Shown here one piece after another: positions 34,150-41,677 of a stretch of 64,000 nucleotides of DNA. The notes under the pieces were generated by a model. The model saw only the letters and a program-made list of their open reading frames with translations, made no database searches and was not told where the DNA came from. Origin of the DNA: an archaeon (GTDB lineage Archaea; Nanobdellota; Nanobdellia; Pacearchaeales; GW2011-AR1); NCBI GenBank assembly GCA_027343665.1, contig DAHWKL010000001.1, forward strand, positions 190,773 through 254,772, in the 5' to 3' direction. Every line of letters begins with the position of its first letter. The stretch's first letter is position 1. The position numbers and the translations under genes are program-made.

Positions 34150-35061
34150 ATGGAAAATATTAAGGTAATCTTATTTTACAAGTTTGCAGATCTGAAAAAT
34201 CCGGGAGAATTCGTGAAAGAGCACCTGAAATTTTGCAAAGAACTGGGGATATTAGGAAGAGTCTTGGTCTCACATGAAGGAATAAACGGAAGCATCACTG
34301 GGACAGACTGGCAGATTGACAGGTACAAAGAAAACTTAAGATCAGATAAAAGATTCACAGACATAACTTTCAAGGAAGAGGAAATCATTGAAAAACCATT
34401 TACAAAAATGAAAGTTAAATTCAGAAAAGAGATAGTTACATTCGGAGAAAAAGTTGATCTGGCAAGAAAAGGAGATTATATAGCTCCGGAGAAGTTGAAA
34501 GAGATGTATGACAATAAAGAGGAATTCATCATACTTGACGCAAGAAATGATTATGAATATAAAATAGGCAGATTCAAAAATGCCATACATCTTGACATAA
34601 AAAATTTCAGAGATTTTCCATCCGCACTTAAAAGAATAGAAAACCTGAAAGACAAAAAAATTGTGACTTACTGCACCGGTGGGGTAAGATGCGAGAAAGC
34701 TTCGTCTTATATGAAAGAAAGAGGTTTCAGAAATGTCATGCAGCTTAAAGATGGGATACTCGCATTCGGAAAAAAGTTCCCTGACACAGTATGGGAAGGC
34801 AAATGTTTTGTATTCGATAAAAGGCTTGTCCAAAGTATAAATTCCAATGAAGACACTATCTCAGAATGTTTCATATGCTCAGCACCATCGGATCTTTACA
34901 GGAATTGCAGGAACCTTGACTGTGACAGACTTTTCATATCCTGCCTCAACTGTCAAAAAGAGCTCAACGGATGCTGTTCTAAAGAATGCCTCACCGAGTT
35001 CAGAAAACAATGTATGGGCAAGTCGATTGCAAAACAGGGAAGAAGAAGTTTAACAATGTAA
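34150..35061 (+). CDS. trhO: tRNA uridine(34) hydroxylase-like rhodanese protein
   Basis: This 303-aa protein is of the TrhO/YceA family (UPF0176), which in bacteria hydroxylates U34 of tRNA using oxygen. N-terminal acylphosphatase-like domain (VILFYKFADL, LVSHEGINGSITG), then a rhodanese domain with ILDARNDYEYKIGRF and the active cysteine in TYCTGGVRCEKAS. A cysteine-rich C-terminal zinc region (CFICSAP, CLNCQKE, CCSKECL) follows. TATA ATTATAAAG at about 34122 supports the start. Confidence 0.88.
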   Translation: MENIKVILFYKFADLKNPGEFVKEHLKFCKELGILGRVLVSHEGINGSITGTDWQIDRYKENLRSDKRFTDITFKEEEIIEKPFTKMKVKFRKEIVTFGEKVDLARKGDYIAPEKLKEMYDNKEEFIILDARNDYEYKIGRFKNAIHLDIKNFRDFPSALKRIENLKDKKIVTYCTGGVRCEKASSYMKERGFRNVMQLKDGILAFGKKFPDTVWEGKCFVFDKRLVQSINSNEDTISECFICSAPSDLYRNCRNLDCDRLFISCLNCQKELNGCCSKECLTEFRKQCMGKSIAKQGRRSLTM

Positions 35062-35115: not shown

Positions 35116-35760
35116 ATGATGGAAAAGTTAGACAAAAGAATAAGCCCGAAACATTTTCATGTGACCATTTTCGGGAGCGCAAGGATAAAAAAGAATGATC
35201 CAATCTACAAAGAGATTTACAAACTCGCGGAGATGGTGGGAAAAAGGAACTGGGATGTGGTCACAGGCGGCGGTCCCGGCATAATGGAAGCTGCCAATCT
35301 GGGTCACAGAAAAGGAAACAAAGGGAAAGATGCACACTCAATAGGTCTGGGGATAAAACTTCCACATGAACAAAGATTCAACACGGGAGTGCAGTTATAC
35401 CAGGAGTTTAAAATATTCTCAAGGAGACTAGACAATTTCATGCTCTTATCGAATGCGATAGTAATAGCTCCCGGAGGGGTGGGAACACTTCTTGAATTAT
35501 TGTACTCTTGGGAACTTATGCAGGTCGGGGACACATGTCAGATACCAATAATATTATTGGGGAATATCTGGGACGGACTTTTAAAATGGCTGAGGGAAAA
35601 ACCATTGAAGGAAAAATATTTCGAAGAAAAGGATTTCAAACTGCTTTATCACGCCAAAAGTTCAAAAGAAGCGATAGAGATCATAGATAATGCCTACGAA
35701 AGGTGGACAAAAGGAGACAGAACATTCTGCTTAAATTATAAGAAATACAAAATAAAATGA
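35116..35760 (+). CDS. LOG-family nucleotide phosphoribohydrolase
   Basis: This 214-aa Rossmann-fold protein has both LOG signatures: VTGGGPGIMEAAN near residue 50 and PGGVGTLLELLYSWELMQ near 118. LOG enzymes (once misnamed lysine decarboxylases) hydrolyse nucleoside 5'-monophosphates to free base plus ribose 5-phosphate. Its stop overlaps the rpiB start by four bases (ATGA), and RpiB uses ribose 5-phosphate, so a coupled salvage route is a strong inference. Two adjacent ATGs (35116, 35119) could serve as start. Confidence 0.88.
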   Translation: MMEKLDKRISPKHFHVTIFGSARIKKNDPIYKEIYKLAEMVGKRNWDVVTGGGPGIMEAANLGHRKGNKGKDAHSIGLGIKLPHEQRFNTGVQLYQEFKIFSRRLDNFMLLSNAIVIAPGGVGTLLELLYSWELMQVGDTCQIPIILLGNIWDGLLKWLREKPLKEKYFEEKDFKLLYHAKSSKEAIEIIDNAYERWTKGDRTFCLNYKKYKIK

Positions 35761-36224
35761 AAATCTTCATAGGCTCTGATCATGCAGGATTCGAATATAA
35801 AAGCAAGATCAAAGAGTGGCTGGATAAAAGTGGCTACAGCGTCGAAGACGTCGGGCCTTTCAAGTATGACCCAAAGGATGATTATCCCACTTACAGCTTT
35901 AAAGTGGCTGAACAAGTTGCAAAAACAAAAGATTCGTACGGAGTCATAATCGCACGCTCAGGAATAGGAGAAAGCATCGTCGCGAATAAGGTCACAGGCG
36001 TAAGAGCAGTTTCTTTCTTTGGAAAACCACCAAAAGATTTCCTGAAAATGTCGAGGATGCATGACAACACAAACGTCCTTTGTTTCGGTTCAGAATTTGT
36101 GACTCTCCCGGAAGCTAAAAAAGCCATAACAATATGGCTTAAGACAGAATTCAAAAACGAAACAAGACACAAAAGAAGACTAAAAGAAATCTCAGACTAC
36201 GAAAAGAAACATTGGAGAAACTGA
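35757..36224 (+). CDS. rpiB: ribose-5-phosphate isomerase B
   Basis: This 155-aa RpiB/LacAB-fold enzyme interconverts ribose 5-phosphate and ribulose 5-phosphate. SDHAGFEYK near residue 7 binds phosphate. The catalytic loop reads ARSGIGESIVANK: the E. coli active cysteine is absent and a glutamate sits where the mycobacterial enzyme uses one as base. SRMHDNTNVLCFGSE carries the conserved histidine. It overlaps the LOG gene by four bases and is followed one base later by rpe. Confidence 0.92.
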   Translation: MKIFIGSDHAGFEYKSKIKEWLDKSGYSVEDVGPFKYDPKDDYPTYSFKVAEQVAKTKDSYGVIIARSGIGESIVANKVTGVRAVSFFGKPPKDFLKMSRMHDNTNVLCFGSEFVTLPEAKKAITIWLKTEFKNETRHKRRLKEISDYEKKHWRN

Positions 36225-36225
36225 A

Positions 36226-36861
36226 ATGAGAAAAGTCATACCGACGATTTTTGCACACAATAAAAAAGAATTTGATGAAAGATTAAAAAGATTACTCCCG
36301 ATATCAAACTATTTCCAGATAGATTTCATGGACGGGAAATTCGTCTCGGGGAAATCTGTCAAGATCTCCGAAATCCCCGACCTGAGAAGGTATAAGAAAA
36401 ATTTTGAAGCTCATCTCATGATAAAAAATCCTGAAAAAGAGATCGAAGAGCTCAGGAAAAAAGGGTTCAAAAAGATCATTTTCCACATAGAATCAACAAA
36501 AAACCCCGATAAAGCCATTAATGAAATAAAAAGATCTGAAATGAAATGCTTTATTGCCGTGAACCCTGAAACAAAAGCCGAAAGAGTTTTTCCGATGGCG
36601 GAAAAAATGGATGGCATCATGTTCATGGGAGTGCGTCCGGGAAAAGAAAATCAGAATTTTATAAGATCGGTTTACAAGAAAATAGTCTTGACAAAAAGGA
36701 GATTTCCTGATAAAGTGGTTCAAGTTGACGGCGGTGTAGATGATAAAACGATAATGAAACTCAAAAATTCTGGTTTGGACATTGCAAATACCGGTTCATA
36801 CGTGAACAATTCAGAAAATCCAAGGGAAGCTCTGAGAAAATTAAAAAAACTTTTTGGCTGA
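36226..36861 (+). CDS. rpe: ribulose-phosphate 3-epimerase
   Basis: This 211-aa TIM-barrel enzyme converts ribulose 5-phosphate to xylulose 5-phosphate. Metal and acid/base residues lie in QIDFMDGKFVSG, FEAHLMIKN and VVQVDGGVDD; MFMGVRPGKENQNF matches the M-V-PG-gGQ-F block in a diverged form. It completes the LOG-RpiB-Rpe operon. Its final 21 bases overlap the 3' end of the convergent transketolase gene. Confidence 0.9.
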   Translation: MRKVIPTIFAHNKKEFDERLKRLLPISNYFQIDFMDGKFVSGKSVKISEIPDLRRYKKNFEAHLMIKNPEKEIEELRKKGFKKIIFHIESTKNPDKAINEIKRSEMKCFIAVNPETKAERVFPMAEKMDGIMFMGVRPGKENQNFIRSVYKKIVLTKRRFPDKVVQVDGGVDDKTIMKLKNSGLDIANTGSYVNNSENPREALRKLKKLFG

Positions 36862-38667
36862 TTCAGCAATAGCATCAGCGTCAATCTTGTATTTATGCAA
36901 TAATTCGTCTTTTGCTCCTGAATGCGGAATACCTTCCACAAAAAGATGGTTTATCTTTATCCCGGAGTCTCTAAGTTCGGAGATAAGCATCTCGCCGATC
37001 CCGCCCTCTCCGTGATGATCCTCTGAGACAACAATTTTCCCGCCGTGCTTTCTGATGAATTTCACGAATTTCTTTGAATCGAAAGGTTTTATCTTGTATA
37101 AATCCACGACGGCAACTTTTTTCCCTTCTGCAGTTAATTTCTCGTAAGCTTTCAAAGATTCATGCAGAGTTATACCTGACCCTACAAGAACGGCTTCATC
37201 TTTTCTTGATTCACGGACGGCCTTAAAATCTTCGATACCAAAAACTTCAGAATTTTTGTATATCACGGGTAATTTTGGCCTTGTGGTTCTTAAATATTTT
37301 ATCCCTTTCATTTTTCCGGAGAGGAAAAGAAGTTTTTGTGCAGAGACTGCGTCTGATGGACAAAAAATAACTGAATCCGGAAGGCTTCTGAAAAGCGAGA
37401 TGTCCTCCAGGCCCATCTGTGAGGCACCATCTTCCCCTATTGAAACTCCCGCATGACTCCCGCATACAGTAAAATTCGCGGAGGATAAAGCAGACATTCT
37501 CAGTTGGTCATAGGCTCTTGTGAGAAAAGCGGAAAATGTCGAAGGATAAGGGTTCATCCCTTTTTTGCTGAGCCCGAGAGAAAGTCCGATCATATTCTGC
37601 TCTGAGATATAATTTTCCACGAATTGGCCTTTTGTTCCGGAATCTTTCTCGACATTCTCGGAATAAGTTGAATTTCCAACCTCGGAGTCTATTGCTATAA
37701 CACTCGGATCAGAACGGGCAAGTTCGAGCAGAGCTCTCCCGTAAGCCTCACGCGTTGAAACTTCTTCACCTATTTTGTAAAGGTCAGATTTAAGAGTCCT
37801 GAGTTTTATGCCGAATTTGACTTTTTCTGGGGATTTTATGCTTATTTTAGGCATTGCCCTGTGAGGAATCTCTTTGAGAGCCGCTTCAAGCTCAGATTCG
37901 GAAAGAGCTTTCCCATGCCAACCATTTTTTCCTTCAAGAAAAGAAACCCCTTTTCCCTTGACAGTTTTCGCAAGGATTACAGAAGGTTTCTGCGAAAATT
38001 TCGCTTTCTTCACTGCATTTATGATTTCAATGATATTATGACCATCAGCGACAATTGTTTCCCATCCGAAACTCTCGAATTTCTTTTTATAATTTTCCAG
38101 ATTATATCCGAACATTGTCTCCCTTGTCTGGCCAAGTCTGTTCACATCGACAATTGCTATTATATTTTCTATTCCGTGGTAAGAAGCAAAATTCAAGGAT
38201 TCATAAACTGAACCCTCCGCGAGCTCAGAATCTCCCATAAGAACATAGACATATGACTTCCTTTTTTGCATTCTCATCGCAAGAGCCATCCCAAGCCCGA
38301 CAGAAAGTCCCTGACCAAGTGAGCCGGTCGCAACTTTCACCCAAGGGAGAGAACGCGGCATCGGATGGCCTTCAAGAGGACTCCCGAATTTTCTCAAAGT
38401 TTTTAGATCGTTTTTTATGCATCCTGCCCTTTTCAAAGCTGAATACAAAATCGGAGCCGCGTGACCTTTACTAAGTATAAACTCATCATTATCAGGATTC
38501 TCAGGATTCTTCACGTCATAAGCCATCTCATTAAAGAACAGAGCGGCCATTATTTCTGCGCATGAGAGGCAAGATGTCGGATGTCCGCTTCCAGCAGCAG
38601 TCGTTGAAATGAGCGAATCCCTCCTTAAGACACTTGCAATACTTTCAAGATCATTGATCAGCACCAT
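36841..38667 (-). CDS. tkt: transketolase (full length)
   Basis: This 608-aa thiamine-diphosphate enzyme moves two-carbon units between sugar phosphates. N-terminal TTAAGSGHPTSCLS, the GSLGQGLSVGLGMA and GDSELAEGSVYE motif (ThDP/metal-binding GDG-type), and NRLGQT are followed by the pyrimidine-binding half with ISEQNMIGLSLGLS and a C-terminal VSEDHHGEGG. N and C halves are fused, whereas many archaea split them. ATG 38667 fits a TATA near 38693-38705 on the minus strand; an in-frame ATG 18 codons upstream is less likely. Confidence 0.94.
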   Translation of the reverse strand: MVLINDLESIASVLRRDSLISTTAAGSGHPTSCLSCAEIMAALFFNEMAYDVKNPENPDNDEFILSKGHAAPILYSALKRAGCIKNDLKTLRKFGSPLEGHPMPRSLPWVKVATGSLGQGLSVGLGMALAMRMQKRKSYVYVLMGDSELAEGSVYESLNFASYHGIENIIAIVDVNRLGQTRETMFGYNLENYKKKFESFGWETIVADGHNIIEIINAVKKAKFSQKPSVILAKTVKGKGVSFLEGKNGWHGKALSESELEAALKEIPHRAMPKISIKSPEKVKFGIKLRTLKSDLYKIGEEVSTREAYGRALLELARSDPSVIAIDSEVGNSTYSENVEKDSGTKGQFVENYISEQNMIGLSLGLSKKGMNPYPSTFSAFLTRAYDQLRMSALSSANFTVCGSHAGVSIGEDGASQMGLEDISLFRSLPDSVIFCPSDAVSAQKLLFLSGKMKGIKYLRTTRPKLPVIYKNSEVFGIEDFKAVRESRKDEAVLVGSGITLHESLKAYEKLTAEGKKVAVVDLYKIKPFDSKKFVKFIRKHGGKIVVSEDHHGEGGIGEMLISELRDSGIKINHLFVEGIPHSGAKDELLHKYKIDADAIAESAKKFF

Positions 38668-38704
38668 CTTTCTTAAAGATAAATGGGAGAAAGATTTTAT
38701 AAAT

Positions 38705-39523
38705 TTAATATTTTCCGTCAACCAACTTTTTGTATTCTGGGACTATATCTTTTGTGAAACCCCTCATCCCTTCTGCTGTCTTGAAGTGGTTTACAAGGGA
38801 TTCGATTATATCAAAAGGCGCGGTGATAATGTCGGCACCTGCGATTATACATTCCCTGAATTCCCTTTTGTTTCTTATGCTCGCAGCGAGTATCTTGGTT
38901 TTTATCTTTTCCTTGTCGAATATTTCACGCGCCTCTTTTATCAGATCAACTCCTGAGATTATGCCCTCATCTTCGAGAACTTTCCCTTTCTTCTTTTCCC
39001 CTTTTTCAGGAAAATAGTCGTCTTTGTCAAAGCTTATTTTGTATTTCTTCCTTATGAAATCATCTTCCCTACCTACAAATGGGCTCACGAATTTTGCTCC
39101 TGCGCGGGCAGCGAGAAGGGCTTGTTCGGGCGTAAAGATGAGCGTGCAGTTCACTGGAATTTTTTCTTTCGACAGTATTTTTATCGCCTTTATGCCGTCA
39201 AAATCCCCGCCTGAAGATTCATCAAATGAAGGATTGACCGGGATTTTTATGTAAACATTTTTTCCCACACCATTGAATTTTTTGTATAATTTTTCTCCCT
39301 CTTTGACCATTTCTTTGTAAGTGTTTCCGATGACTTCAAGGCTAACGGGTTTTCCTTTGGCTACCTTCAGGATTTTTTTTATGTAATCTTCAATATCCCC
39401 GCCGAATTCATCTGAAGCTTTCTTTATCAAGCTCGGATTTGTCGTCACGCCATCAAGAAGTCCCCAGCTTTTGACTTTCTCGATCTCATCGAGTTTTGCC
39501 GAGTCAAGAAATATTTTCACCAT
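38705..39523 (-). CDS. tal: transaldolase (TalC/fructose-6-phosphate aldolase type)
   Basis: This 272-aa class I aldolase transfers dihydroxyacetone units between sugar phosphates. KIFLDSAKLDEI opens the barrel, GVTTNPSLIKK follows, and the Schiff-base lysine is in NVYIKIPVN near residue 93. NCTLIFTPEQALLAARAGAKFVSPFVGR is split here: residues 126-134 and 135-152 carry these blocks. A roughly 35-residue lysine-rich insert follows (KYKISFDKDDYFPEKGEKK). The gene lies 37 bases upstream of tkt on the same strand. Confidence 0.92.
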   Translation of the reverse strand: MVKIFLDSAKLDEIEKVKSWGLLDGVTTNPSLIKKASDEFGGDIEDYIKKILKVAKGKPVSLEVIGNTYKEMVKEGEKLYKKFNGVGKNVYIKIPVNPSFDESSGGDFDGIKAIKILSKEKIPVNCTLIFTPEQALLAARAGAKFVSPFVGREDDFIRKKYKISFDKDDYFPEKGEKKKGKVLEDEGIISGVDLIKEAREIFDKEKIKTKILAASIRNKREFRECIIAGADIITAPFDIIESLVNHFKTAEGMRGFTKDIVPEYKKLVDGKY

Positions 39524-39732: not shown

Positions 39733-40806
39733 ATGGAGAAAAACCTGATTGTCGAATGGGTTTTGGGGGCTTCCGGAAAATACGAAATAGACTTGGCCGA
39801 AAGTGGAATACAGTATCATTATTTAAGAGATTTCAAGATAGGTAGAGGATGCAATTTAAATTATTCTTCAGACGCAGGGAGTCCTGAACTGAGAGAGAAA
39901 ATCTCTAAGTTGTACAGAGTCAAAAAAGAAAATGTTCTTATTACCAATGGGAGCCAAGAGGCAATGTACATACTGCTCAATGTTCTTTTGAGAGAAGGCG
40001 ATGAGGTGGTAATAATCTCACCGGGGTGGCAACAGTATGAAGAAGTTGCTAAAAAAATAGGCGCCAAGATCAAGAAGTTATTTTTAGATCCTAAAGAAGA
40101 TTTTCAGTTAAACCCAAGTGATTTAAAGAAATTGATTAGCAAAAAAACAAAGGCAGTTATAATAAATAGCCCGCACAACCCGACAGGGCTCAAGTTTGAT
40201 ATCAAAAAAATAAAAACCATAATCCCAAAAGGAGTATTTTTGATAAATGATGAGGTTTATCTCTTAAACCCGAATGAGTCGGTTACATATAACTGTGAAG
40301 ACAAGAATTTTATCTCCGTGGGAAGTCTTTCAAAGATTCAGGGTGTACCCGGAATAAGGATTGGTTGGATGATTGGACTCAAGAGTATTGTAGACGAGGC
40401 GATAAACTATCGCAGGTATACAACAATATCTAATTCGGCTTTAGGTGAAGACATTGCGCTAGAAATCTTCAAAGACTACAGCAAGTATTTGAAAGAATAT
40501 CATAATTTAGTCTCAAGAGGGTTTCACACCCTTAAGAAATGGGTTGAAGAACAAAAAGGCATAAAACTCATTAAACCGCATGGGACCCCTTTTGCATTAA
40601 TAAAATACAAATTCAACATACCTTCAAAAGATTTGTGCGAGCAAATTTTGAATAAAGAGAAGGTGCTGTTGGTTCCAGGCTCTTCTTTTGGAACAGAAAA
40701 CTGCTTTAGAATATCCTTTGGTAGAGATCCAGAGATTTTAAATAAAGGCTTGAGAAAGATTTCAAGATTTTTTGGAAATATAAATGAAAACTCAGACAGT
40801 AAGTAA
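39733..40806 (+). CDS. class I/II PLP-dependent aminotransferase
   Basis: This 357-aa fold-type I aminotransferase has LITNGSQEAMY, INSPHNPTGLKFD near residue 140, DEVYLL, and the PLP lysine in SVGSLSKIQGVPGIRIGW near residue 207; the phosphate-binding arginine follows the lysine as usual. The C-terminal FRISFGRDPE carries the substrate-carboxylate arginine. The substrate is unknown. Its last 23 bases overlap the EgtD-like methyltransferase, so a shared pathway is likely. TATA TTTTAATAC at about 39703 supports the start. Confidence 0.88.
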   Translation: MEKNLIVEWVLGASGKYEIDLAESGIQYHYLRDFKIGRGCNLNYSSDAGSPELREKISKLYRVKKENVLITNGSQEAMYILLNVLLREGDEVVIISPGWQQYEEVAKKIGAKIKKLFLDPKEDFQLNPSDLKKLISKKTKAVIINSPHNPTGLKFDIKKIKTIIPKGVFLINDEVYLLNPNESVTYNCEDKNFISVGSLSKIQGVPGIRIGWMIGLKSIVDEAINYRRYTTISNSALGEDIALEIFKDYSKYLKEYHNLVSRGFHTLKKWVEEQKGIKLIKPHGTPFALIKYKFNIPSKDLCEQILNKEKVLLVPGSSFGTENCFRISFGRDPEILNKGLRKISRFFGNINENSDSK

Positions 40807-41677
40807 TAATTTATGGGAAAGTTTCTTGAAAGACCTAAGAAGAGGCTGGGTCTCCTCAGAACACTGGTTCACTCAGAATGTGAAAGAACTAGATAAACTC
40901 TATTCCCCAAAGAATTTTCGAAGCAAAACCTCTTATTATGAAGTCCCTTCCGGAGAGCAGGGGATAATTCTTGAAAACATCAGCAAGATAACTAGATACA
41001 CCCAAGATCGACAAATTGTAGTGTGGGGGGCTGGCATGAAAGAAGCGGAGTTAGTGAAGGCGGCAATGAGGGAGGGTTCAAAGCGTCACATCACCATAAT
41101 TGACATAGAAAAATTCTATATGGATAAAATGATTAAGAGAATAAATAATCTGAAAAAAATCCGTGTAGTTAAAATCATCGACCTCTTCCAGAATGTCAGG
41201 CTCAATAAGAGAAATCCCTCTTTCCACATATTTCTCGGCACAAGCATAGGAAATTTCGATCAGGAAGAAATTTTCAGAGTCTTGGAAAGGAACATGAAAA
41301 AAGGCGACTTAATAATGATAGGATTTGAGTTGAACAAAAACCCTCCATGGATTCTTAAAGAGTATAAGAAAGATTCCAATTTCACAAAATGCGTCCACTT
41401 GAAGATATTTGATAATGCGATCAAGATGAAGAGGGCAAAAGAATATTGGAGATACAACAACAAAAAGCAACAGATAGAATTTTTCATAGAGTTCCTTGAT
41501 AATGTCAGGATAGATAAATTTAAACTGTATTTCAGGAAAGGATCAAAGGTAGAAGTCTTTCGGTCCAAAAAGTATAATGAGAAATCATTCTCTAGATTCG
41601 CACTAAGATACAGCTTGGAAACCTTGGAGACTTTTTCTGAAGGAAACAACTGCATAAAAATTTTAAGGAAAATGTGA
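40784..41677 (+). CDS. EgtD-like amino-acid N-methyltransferase
   Basis: This 297-aa SAM-dependent methyltransferase resembles EgtD (DUF2260 family), which trimethylates the alpha-amino group of histidine. Blocks: VVWGAGMKEAELVKA (motif I, diverged), FHIFLGTSIGNFDQEE matching the EgtD FLGSTIGN motif, GDLIMIGFEL, and WRYNNKKQQIEFFIEF followed by a KYNEKSF segment that occupies the substrate-site part of EgtD. It is translationally coupled to the aminotransferase. Whether histidine is the substrate cannot be judged. A CTCG-CA-CGAG run plus six T's at 41705-41720 may terminate it. Confidence 0.7.
   Translation: MKTQTVSNNLWESFLKDLRRGWVSSEHWFTQNVKELDKLYSPKNFRSKTSYYEVPSGEQGIILENISKITRYTQDRQIVVWGAGMKEAELVKAAMREGSKRHITIIDIEKFYMDKMIKRINNLKKIRVVKIIDLFQNVRLNKRNPSFHIFLGTSIGNFDQEEIFRVLERNMKKGDLIMIGFELNKNPPWILKEYKKDSNFTKCVHLKIFDNAIKMKRAKEYWRYNNKKQQIEFFIEFLDNVRIDKFKLYFRKGSKVEVFRSKKYNEKSFSRFALRYSLETLETFSEGNNCIKILRKM

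Follow-up and report, generated by a model that had tools for sequence, protein, structure and literature searches.

A LOG-family gene linked to pentose phosphate genes and its exchange with the AMP phosphorylase and RuBisCO genes in Pacearchaeota-like archaea

The occurrence of RuBisCO in DPANN and Candidate Phyla Radiation (CPR) genomes is explained by the adenosine monophosphate (AMP) pathway, and how nucleotide ribose is handled in their relatives without RuBisCO was unclear. This question is raised by a 64-kb stretch of DNA from an archaeon of the Pacearchaeales (contig DAHWKL010000001.1 of assembly GCA_027343665.1; hereafter the window, meaning the whole stretch), in which a gene for a LOG-family phosphoribohydrolase precedes genes for ribose-5-phosphate isomerase B (RpiB) and ribulose-phosphate 3-epimerase (Rpe), facing genes for transketolase and transaldolase. 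An earlier note on this DNA had read the five genes as a chain from nucleoside monophosphates (NMPs) to fructose 6-phosphate and glyceraldehyde 3-phosphate. Does such a module stand where the AMP pathway is missing, and what does its first enzyme act upon? In the analysis described here the observation of the earlier note is confirmed and its interpretation is partly supported.

Across the order we show a presence/absence swap, in which the module stands in for AMP phosphorylase, ribose-1,5-bisphosphate (R15P) isomerase and form III RuBisCO. The reading that we favour, with a probability of roughly 0.6, is that the cluster is a nucleotide-ribose salvage module, in which a LOG nucleosidase would feed ribose 5-phosphate (R5P) into the pentose phosphate pathway and thereby replace the route through AMP phosphorylase and RuBisCO. 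LOG would hydrolyse nucleoside 5'-monophosphates to free base and R5P, RpiB and Rpe would convert R5P to ribulose 5-phosphate and xylulose 5-phosphate, and transketolase, together with transaldolase where it is present, would yield fructose 6-phosphate and glyceraldehyde 3-phosphate, which would then enter the encoded glycolytic enzymes, as assigned by family. Within the swap, LOG would substitute for AMP phosphorylase, and the isomerase and RuBisCO would give way to the pentose phosphate genes. The substrate of LOG, that is its NMP hydrolase activity, and the direction of flux are what we infer from sequence.

Exchange of two gene sets across the order

Seven gene families were sought in each of 172 genomes of the order, where a window-type LOG was defined by similarity to the window protein (at least 188 bits) and a full transketolase as an open frame of at least 590 aa around the match. 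Over the order, AMP phosphorylase was found in 139 genomes, R15P isomerase in 127 and RuBisCO in 126, the calls of the first two resting on E-values, with the model cut-off reached in 36 of the 172 for AMP phosphorylase and in 0 of the 172 for R15P isomerase. Window-type LOG is present in 18 genomes belonging to 11 genera, and there the AMP-pathway genes are scarce: AMP phosphorylase occurs in 3/18 against 136/154 of the other genomes, R15P isomerase in 1/18 against 126/154, and RuBisCO in 1/18 against 125/154. The pentose phosphate genes follow LOG, with RpiB in 18/18 against 14/154, full transketolase in 18/18 against 15/154 and transaldolase in 10/18 against 10/154. All three AMP-pathway genes are lacking in 15 of the 18 window-type LOG genomes and in 11 of the 154 others (p 4e-12), or in 11/14 and 10/147 when the genus of the window is left out (p 3e-9), p values that serve as guides only because related species are not independent. 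Conversely, 114 of the 172 genomes have all three AMP-pathway genes and neither LOG nor the pentose pair.

More telling than the p values is the recurrence of the swap in three genera, to which five are added in which all LOG genomes lack the three genes. In genus g1 the four genomes with LOG have none of the AMP-pathway genes, and the six genomes with all three have no LOG; G001, of the same genus, also lacks all three, and its contig starts inside Rpe and is thus cut inside the cluster. Poor assembly was considered as the main cause of the missing genes and rejected, since the LOG genomes of g1, four in number, give the same picture and six others have the complete set. The LOG genomes of g59 (2/2) and g74 (2/2) are likewise without the three genes, g99 is mixed (2/3), and g45 is opposite, its sole LOG genome, G056, having the full set. 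An exact test stratified within these five genera gives p 4e-5 for the lack of all three. For g44, g46, g75, g87 and g95 no internal contrast was tested, and every LOG genome in them lacks the three genes. The earlier note had proposed to check the genome for absence of AMP phosphorylase and RuBisCO; neither these nor R15P isomerase has a match in the window's own assembly (G000; 812 kb, 87.8% complete), and the swap over 172 genomes is stronger support than the note had asked for.

The exchange can be followed further among the 26 genomes with both RpiB and a full transketolase. R15P isomerase is lacking in 24 of them and RuBisCO in 24, LOG or no LOG, and AMP phosphorylase is present in 3/18 with LOG versus 7/8 without (p 0.0013). 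The exclusion of AMP phosphorylase and the pattern of the isomerase and RuBisCO are what is expected if LOG serves instead of the first enzyme of the AMP pathway and the later two give way to the pentose phosphate genes. As a separate observation, the pentose-pathway genomes G030, G058, G060, G133, G146 and G172, which have no window-type LOG, keep AMP phosphorylase while lacking both R15P isomerase and RuBisCO, and in G030 the AMP phosphorylase gene is split over two frames.

The gene cluster, its linkage and its proteins

All five genes of the window are full length without internal stops (Table 1), and their Pfam scores are far over the cut-off, with Rpe (151.7 vs 165) and LOG (80.8 vs 96.35) falling below their NCBIfam cut-offs. 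LOG is the first gene of an abutting plus-strand operon LOG-RpiB-Rpe. This had been described as one overlapping operon, of which the tight packing and a 4-bp overlap of LOG with RpiB hold, while Rpe merely abuts RpiB with a 1-bp gap. Rpe and transketolase are convergent and their 3' ends overlap by 21 bp; the transketolase measures 610 aa from its ATG start, or 626 aa if a TTG start is used. That the operon faces full-length transketolase and transaldolase genes is borne out by the coordinates, Pfam and the NCBIfam transketolase model. The non-oxidative set of RpiB, Rpe, transketolase and transaldolase is complete in the window, as had been claimed, and this completeness is not general among the LOG genomes, as the transaldolase counts indicate.

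Table 1. Genes of the cluster and its neighbours in the window
Feature	Position	Strand	Assignment
TrhO	34150-35061		266 bits, cut-off 170
LOG-family phosphoribohydrolase	35116..35760	+	PF03641 66.9 bits; 214 aa
Ribose-5-phosphate isomerase B (RpiB)	35757..36224	+	PF02502 143.5 bits; NF004051 153.9 bits, cut-off 135
Ribulose-phosphate 3-epimerase (Rpe)	36226..36861	+	PF00834 125 bits; PDB Rpe matches at 8e-28
Single-chain transketolase	36841..38673	-	three transketolase domains; NF004559 764.5 bits, cut-off 488
Transaldolase, TalC/MipB type, 272 aa	38705..39523	-	PF00923 180.9 bits
Aminotransferase-fold and methyltransferase gene pair	39733-41677		

The earlier suggestion to look for the cluster in related genomes is answered by G004, G008 and G010, where LOG-RpiB-Rpe convergent with transketolase is conserved; transaldolase adjoins it in G008 only. 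Over the order, a gene for RpiB, Rpe, transketolase or transaldolase is found no more than 3 kb away from 13 of the 18 window-type LOGs and from none of the eight LOGs of other type (Fisher p 0.0016), two of the eight sitting at contig ends. The five unlinked window-type LOGs are found on contigs of about 7 kb (G083, G154) and on longer ones (G056, G166, G171). Linkage occurs with varied partners and gene orders in 8 genera, and triosephosphate isomerase (TIM) lies beside or near LOG in eight window-type LOG genomes, in most of which a class I aldolase is also near. We considered whether any LOG could mark the swap and rejected this: the other-type LOGs (G079, G115, G134, G161, G133, a broken one in G030, and the second ones of G056 and G121) show no linkage to pentose genes and do not track it, and counting all LOGs regardless of type, 20/24 are without RuBisCO and 15/24 without AMP phosphorylase. 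G056 is the one LOG genome holding both routes; there a second LOG of other type (L128:3099-5330; 231 aa, RRTNE signature) adjoins the AMP phosphorylase gene.

Linkage extends beyond the order. GTDB genomes were scanned with the LOG alignment and the best 80 of 298 confirmed loci were kept, of which 17 were classed as Pacearchaeota-like by hand from their names and 63 lie outside. Among these best 80, the same LOG subfamily is present in Patescibacteria, Thermoplasmatota, Bathyarchaeota, Aenigmatarchaeota, Woesearchaeota and some cyanobacteria. A pentose phosphate gene lies within 3 kb of LOG in 29/63 outside loci, including Patescibacteria, Thermoplasmatota, Aenigmatarchaeota and others; among the 34/63 without one are the nine cyanobacterial loci, every one of them, and several contigs of insufficient length for a decision. 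The usual bacterial order is transaldolase, transketolase, LOG, Gnd, Zwf, phosphogluconolactonase. When pentose-pathway genes are counted at 60 bits or more, their density around LOG in the outside loci falls from 0.256 per kb (less than 1 kb away) to 0.015 per kb (8-10 kb), and 51 of the 58 within 3 kb are on the same strand as LOG (p 2e-9). A quick LOG gene tree, with many weak forks, intermixes archaeal and Patescibacterial sequences, and transfer of LOG between the two is likely.

By sequence the LOG protein matches PDB entries 5wq3, 9us2, 5zi9 and 1wek, and the top Foldseek matches of its AlphaFold model (pLDDT 89) are the same type-II LOGs, those of N. meningitidis (9us2), CgLOGII (5wq3), S. 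coelicolor (5zi9) and TtLOGII (1wek), with TM scores of 0.75-0.79 by query length. It carries the PGGxGTxxE nucleotide-binding motif as PGGVGTLLE at 119-127, in which the P is replaced by H, E or T in some other window-type LOGs, and, like the type-II enzymes, has the Thr that binds phosphate as well as the catalytic Arg and Glu. R104 and E127 are invariant in an alignment of 18 sequences and in 85/85 window-type LOGs, and equal R155 and E178 of CgLOGII, for which the relevant passages of one study give catalytic roles (PMC5379747). The same 85 sequences, whether linked to pentose genes or not, bear the signature R-L-T-L-E, which is found in 0/7 other LOG rows of the alignment (one of the seven broken there); the two ordinary LOG controls show R-K-T-D-E and R-K-T-E-E at these places, Lys with Asp being found in a plasmid type-II control, and the residues of E. 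coli PpnN are R-L-T-E-E. The RLDNF before PGGVGT also fits the PpnN pattern Arg-Leu-[DE]-x-Phe (RLEAF in E. coli PpnN), and against the PpnN equivalog model NF038390 the protein scores 43.6 bits, under the cut-off of 450. Judged from these residues, the window LOG belongs to a distinct type-II subfamily, in which the body is that of a type-II LOG, the Arg-Leu resembles that of PpnN and the second Leu is peculiar to the subfamily, and it differs from standard LOGs of the cytokinin or AMP type.

As for the remaining enzymes, RpiB carries a GIGE motif, which makes it a Glu-type RpiB rather than one with CGTG, the Glu presumably having the role known for that type. In Rpe, D33, H63 and D168 are invariant in 21 aligned sequences and occupy three of the four places that we take to be metal ligands (His, Asp, His, Asp). 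The closest solved structure to the transaldolase is 3s0c, annotated as "Probable transaldolase", and in the alignment its KIPV, SLEV and SPFVGR retain the Lys, Glu and Phe of the 3s0c enzyme. We take Phe and Glu to be what marks a transaldolase against an aldolase. An aldolase of the fructose-6-phosphate aldolase (FSA) type was considered for this protein and ruled out, as its closest structures are transaldolases and the Phe is retained.

Two neighbours of the cluster deserve mention. Upstream of LOG lies TrhO, by name an oxygen-dependent tRNA U34 hydroxylase, in a presumably anaerobic DPANN archaeon. On the other side, two overlapping genes adjoining the cluster encode a pyridoxal phosphate (PLP) aminotransferase-fold protein, whose closest model, below cut-off, is the arginine cyclodehydratase GntC, and an EgtD-like Methyltransf_33 methyltransferase; the pair possibly makes a small amino-acid-derived product.

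Weighing the salvage reading against its competitors

Several observations weigh against nucleotide-ribose salvage. Transaldolase is missing from 8/18 window-type LOG genomes. AMP phosphorylase is retained in three of them (G056, G083, G167), G056 keeping the whole AMP pathway, and the 11 genomes that lack all three AMP-pathway genes without having a window-type LOG (one being G001 with its cut contig) imply that gene loss has other causes too. The window's genome is 88% complete and the genomes within genera are related, so that the counts overstate the number of independent events. In Rpe, Q31 occupies the place of the metal-ligand His of known Rpe, a Gln found at this place in at least 90% of the 21 aligned archaeal sequences. 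Genes for G6PDH, 6PGDH and 6-phosphogluconolactonase are present in several related clusters, and R5P may therefore also come from hexose. Lastly, in all 85 window-type LOGs Leu105 and Leu126 stand where CgLOGII has Lys156 and Asp177 of its adenine pocket, and AMP may not be the substrate of these enzymes.

The earlier note had set the direction of flow from NMP to fructose 6-phosphate. The contig of the window also encodes TIM, class I aldolase, GAPDH, PGK, enolase and phosphoenolpyruvate (PEP) synthase, as well as GH15 and GH57 glycosidases, a starch-synthase-like transferase, a ROK kinase and a D-2-hydroxyacid dehydrogenase. By these assignments the genome has enzymes that could consume fructose 6-phosphate and triose phosphate, but it also has a hexose source, and since both are encoded, along with oxidative pentose genes in the related clusters, flow in either direction can be accommodated. 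On the same contig (C3:42064-60600) the two glycosidases, the transferase, the ROK kinase, TIM, the dehydrogenase, the aldolase, a PfkB-family kinase, PGK and GAPDH form a starch/glycogen and glycolysis cluster. The PfkB-family kinase (C3:55199) has its top score, below cut-off, to ribokinase, which makes it at most a putative phosphofructokinase. A regular-expression search of contig C3 for phosphoribosyl pyrophosphate (PRPP) synthetase gave nothing usable.

The competitor that survives best, although we consider it unlikely, is biosynthetic: in a lineage that ferments sugar, the pentose genes would make R5P from sugar for nucleotides, nucleotide catabolism would no longer be needed, and LOG would serve as a nucleosidase for housekeeping or regulation, paring down NMP pools in the way put forward for E. 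coli PpnN. The glycosidases, transferase, ROK kinase and glycolysis genes of this genome fit it, as do the related clusters and bacterial loci that put LOG between transketolase and Gnd-Zwf, a layout for making pentose phosphate from glucose 6-phosphate. However, a scan of the window and of part of contig C3 (about 45% of the genome being unscanned) turned up no Zwf, Gnd or 6-phosphogluconolactonase, and a biosynthetic role gives no reason to expect the mutual exclusion of LOG and AMP phosphorylase among the pentose-pathway genomes.

Improbable, to a greater degree, is that LOG acts on another R5P conjugate, such as nicotinamide mononucleotide (NMN), some modified nucleotide or a sugar phosphate that has been damaged, and gives R5P back to the pathway in repair or salvage. 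The two Leu of the base pocket speak for it, and the variation around them also does, as the two ordinary LOGs combine Lys with Asp or Glu, PpnN combines Leu with Glu, and the other LOGs of the order differ again; moreover, bacterial LOGs often adjoin the genes of the NADP-dependent dehydrogenases Gnd and Zwf. The base preference of the window LOG probably differs from that of CgLOGII, because Ala at either matching position abolishes or nearly abolishes AMP hydrolysis there, according to the mutational passages of the CgLOGII study (PMC5379747). Yet PpnN, which has the same Arg-Leu, acts on ordinary nucleotides; a Leu at the first position is thus compatible with these and NMPs are still the best guess for the substrate. 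The mutual exclusion with AMP phosphorylase likewise suggests that the two enzymes have similar substrates. A LOG that merely hitch-hikes with laterally transferred pentose genes, with no metabolic tie, is consistent with the mixed gene tree, in which transfer has occurred, but is very improbable given linkage that reappears, with partners and gene order varying, across 8 genera of this order and several phyla, decays sharply with distance, keeps to one strand and is absent from the other-type LOGs of the same order.

Relation to known routes and meaning for small archaea and bacteria

Parts of the proposed salvage module are already known. The AMP pathway and the non-oxidative pentose phosphate pathway have been described in DPANN archaea, the relevant passages reporting bacterial-type transketolase and transaldolase (PMC8407392) and a complete non-oxidative phase in most Woesearchaeota (PMC8421398). 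Entry of LOG-derived R5P into central metabolism had been called not established, which overlooks E. coli PpnN (YgdH): it degrades nucleotides to bases and R5P, and in the parts of that work concerned the authors argue that this R5P flows into the pentose phosphate pathway (PMC10311079). PpnN and the window protein share the LOG domain, the catalytic Glu and an Arg-Leu pair in the helix that precedes PGGVGT, and would share the reaction from NMP to base and R5P. They differ in length (454 aa vs 214 aa, the fold match spanning the LOG domain alone), in the residue before the catalytic Glu (Glu in PpnN, Leu here) and in context, no pentose phosphate gene being annotated within the 15 kb looked at around ppnN. 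The type-II LOGs are the best sequence and fold matches, but they are read as cytokinin enzymes, whereas the window LOG is linked to pentose phosphate genes.

The archaeal AMP pathway, present in most genomes of the order, also routes nucleotide ribose to intermediates of central metabolism. It yields 3-phosphoglycerate, whereas the module described here would yield fructose 6-phosphate and glyceraldehyde 3-phosphate and involve no CO2 fixation. The set of RpiB, Rpe, transketolase and transaldolase is the one known from the DPANN and CPR non-oxidative pathway; in the relevant passages of PMC8407392, however, phyla with that pathway also have RuBisCO, while here, genome by genome, the two sets are nearly exclusive. 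LOG is not mentioned in the pertinent passages of either DPANN account (PMC8407392, PMC8421398), and for a Saccharibacterium the corresponding passages present the non-oxidative pathway as a phosphofructokinase bypass and LOG as a plant-hormone enzyme (PMC6031116). Literature searches, with most subscription journals outside their coverage, gave no mention of LOG in pentose phosphate operons or of its exclusion with the AMP pathway.

It may be, at about even odds in our judgement, that ultra-small archaea and bacteria possess an unrecognised second route for nucleotide ribose, in which a LOG with the RL...LE signature is operon-wired to the pentose phosphate pathway, and that this route has repeatedly replaced AMP phosphorylase, R15P isomerase and RuBisCO in Pacearchaeota-like archaea, leaving a genome with one route or the other. 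The one-or-other pattern provides a direct genomic rule, names the replacement genes and allows a clear enzyme test. It also offers a role for the many "lysine decarboxylase" and "cytokinin" annotations in microbes without a known plant partner, and the same gene pairing is found in both domains of small, mostly host-dependent microbes.

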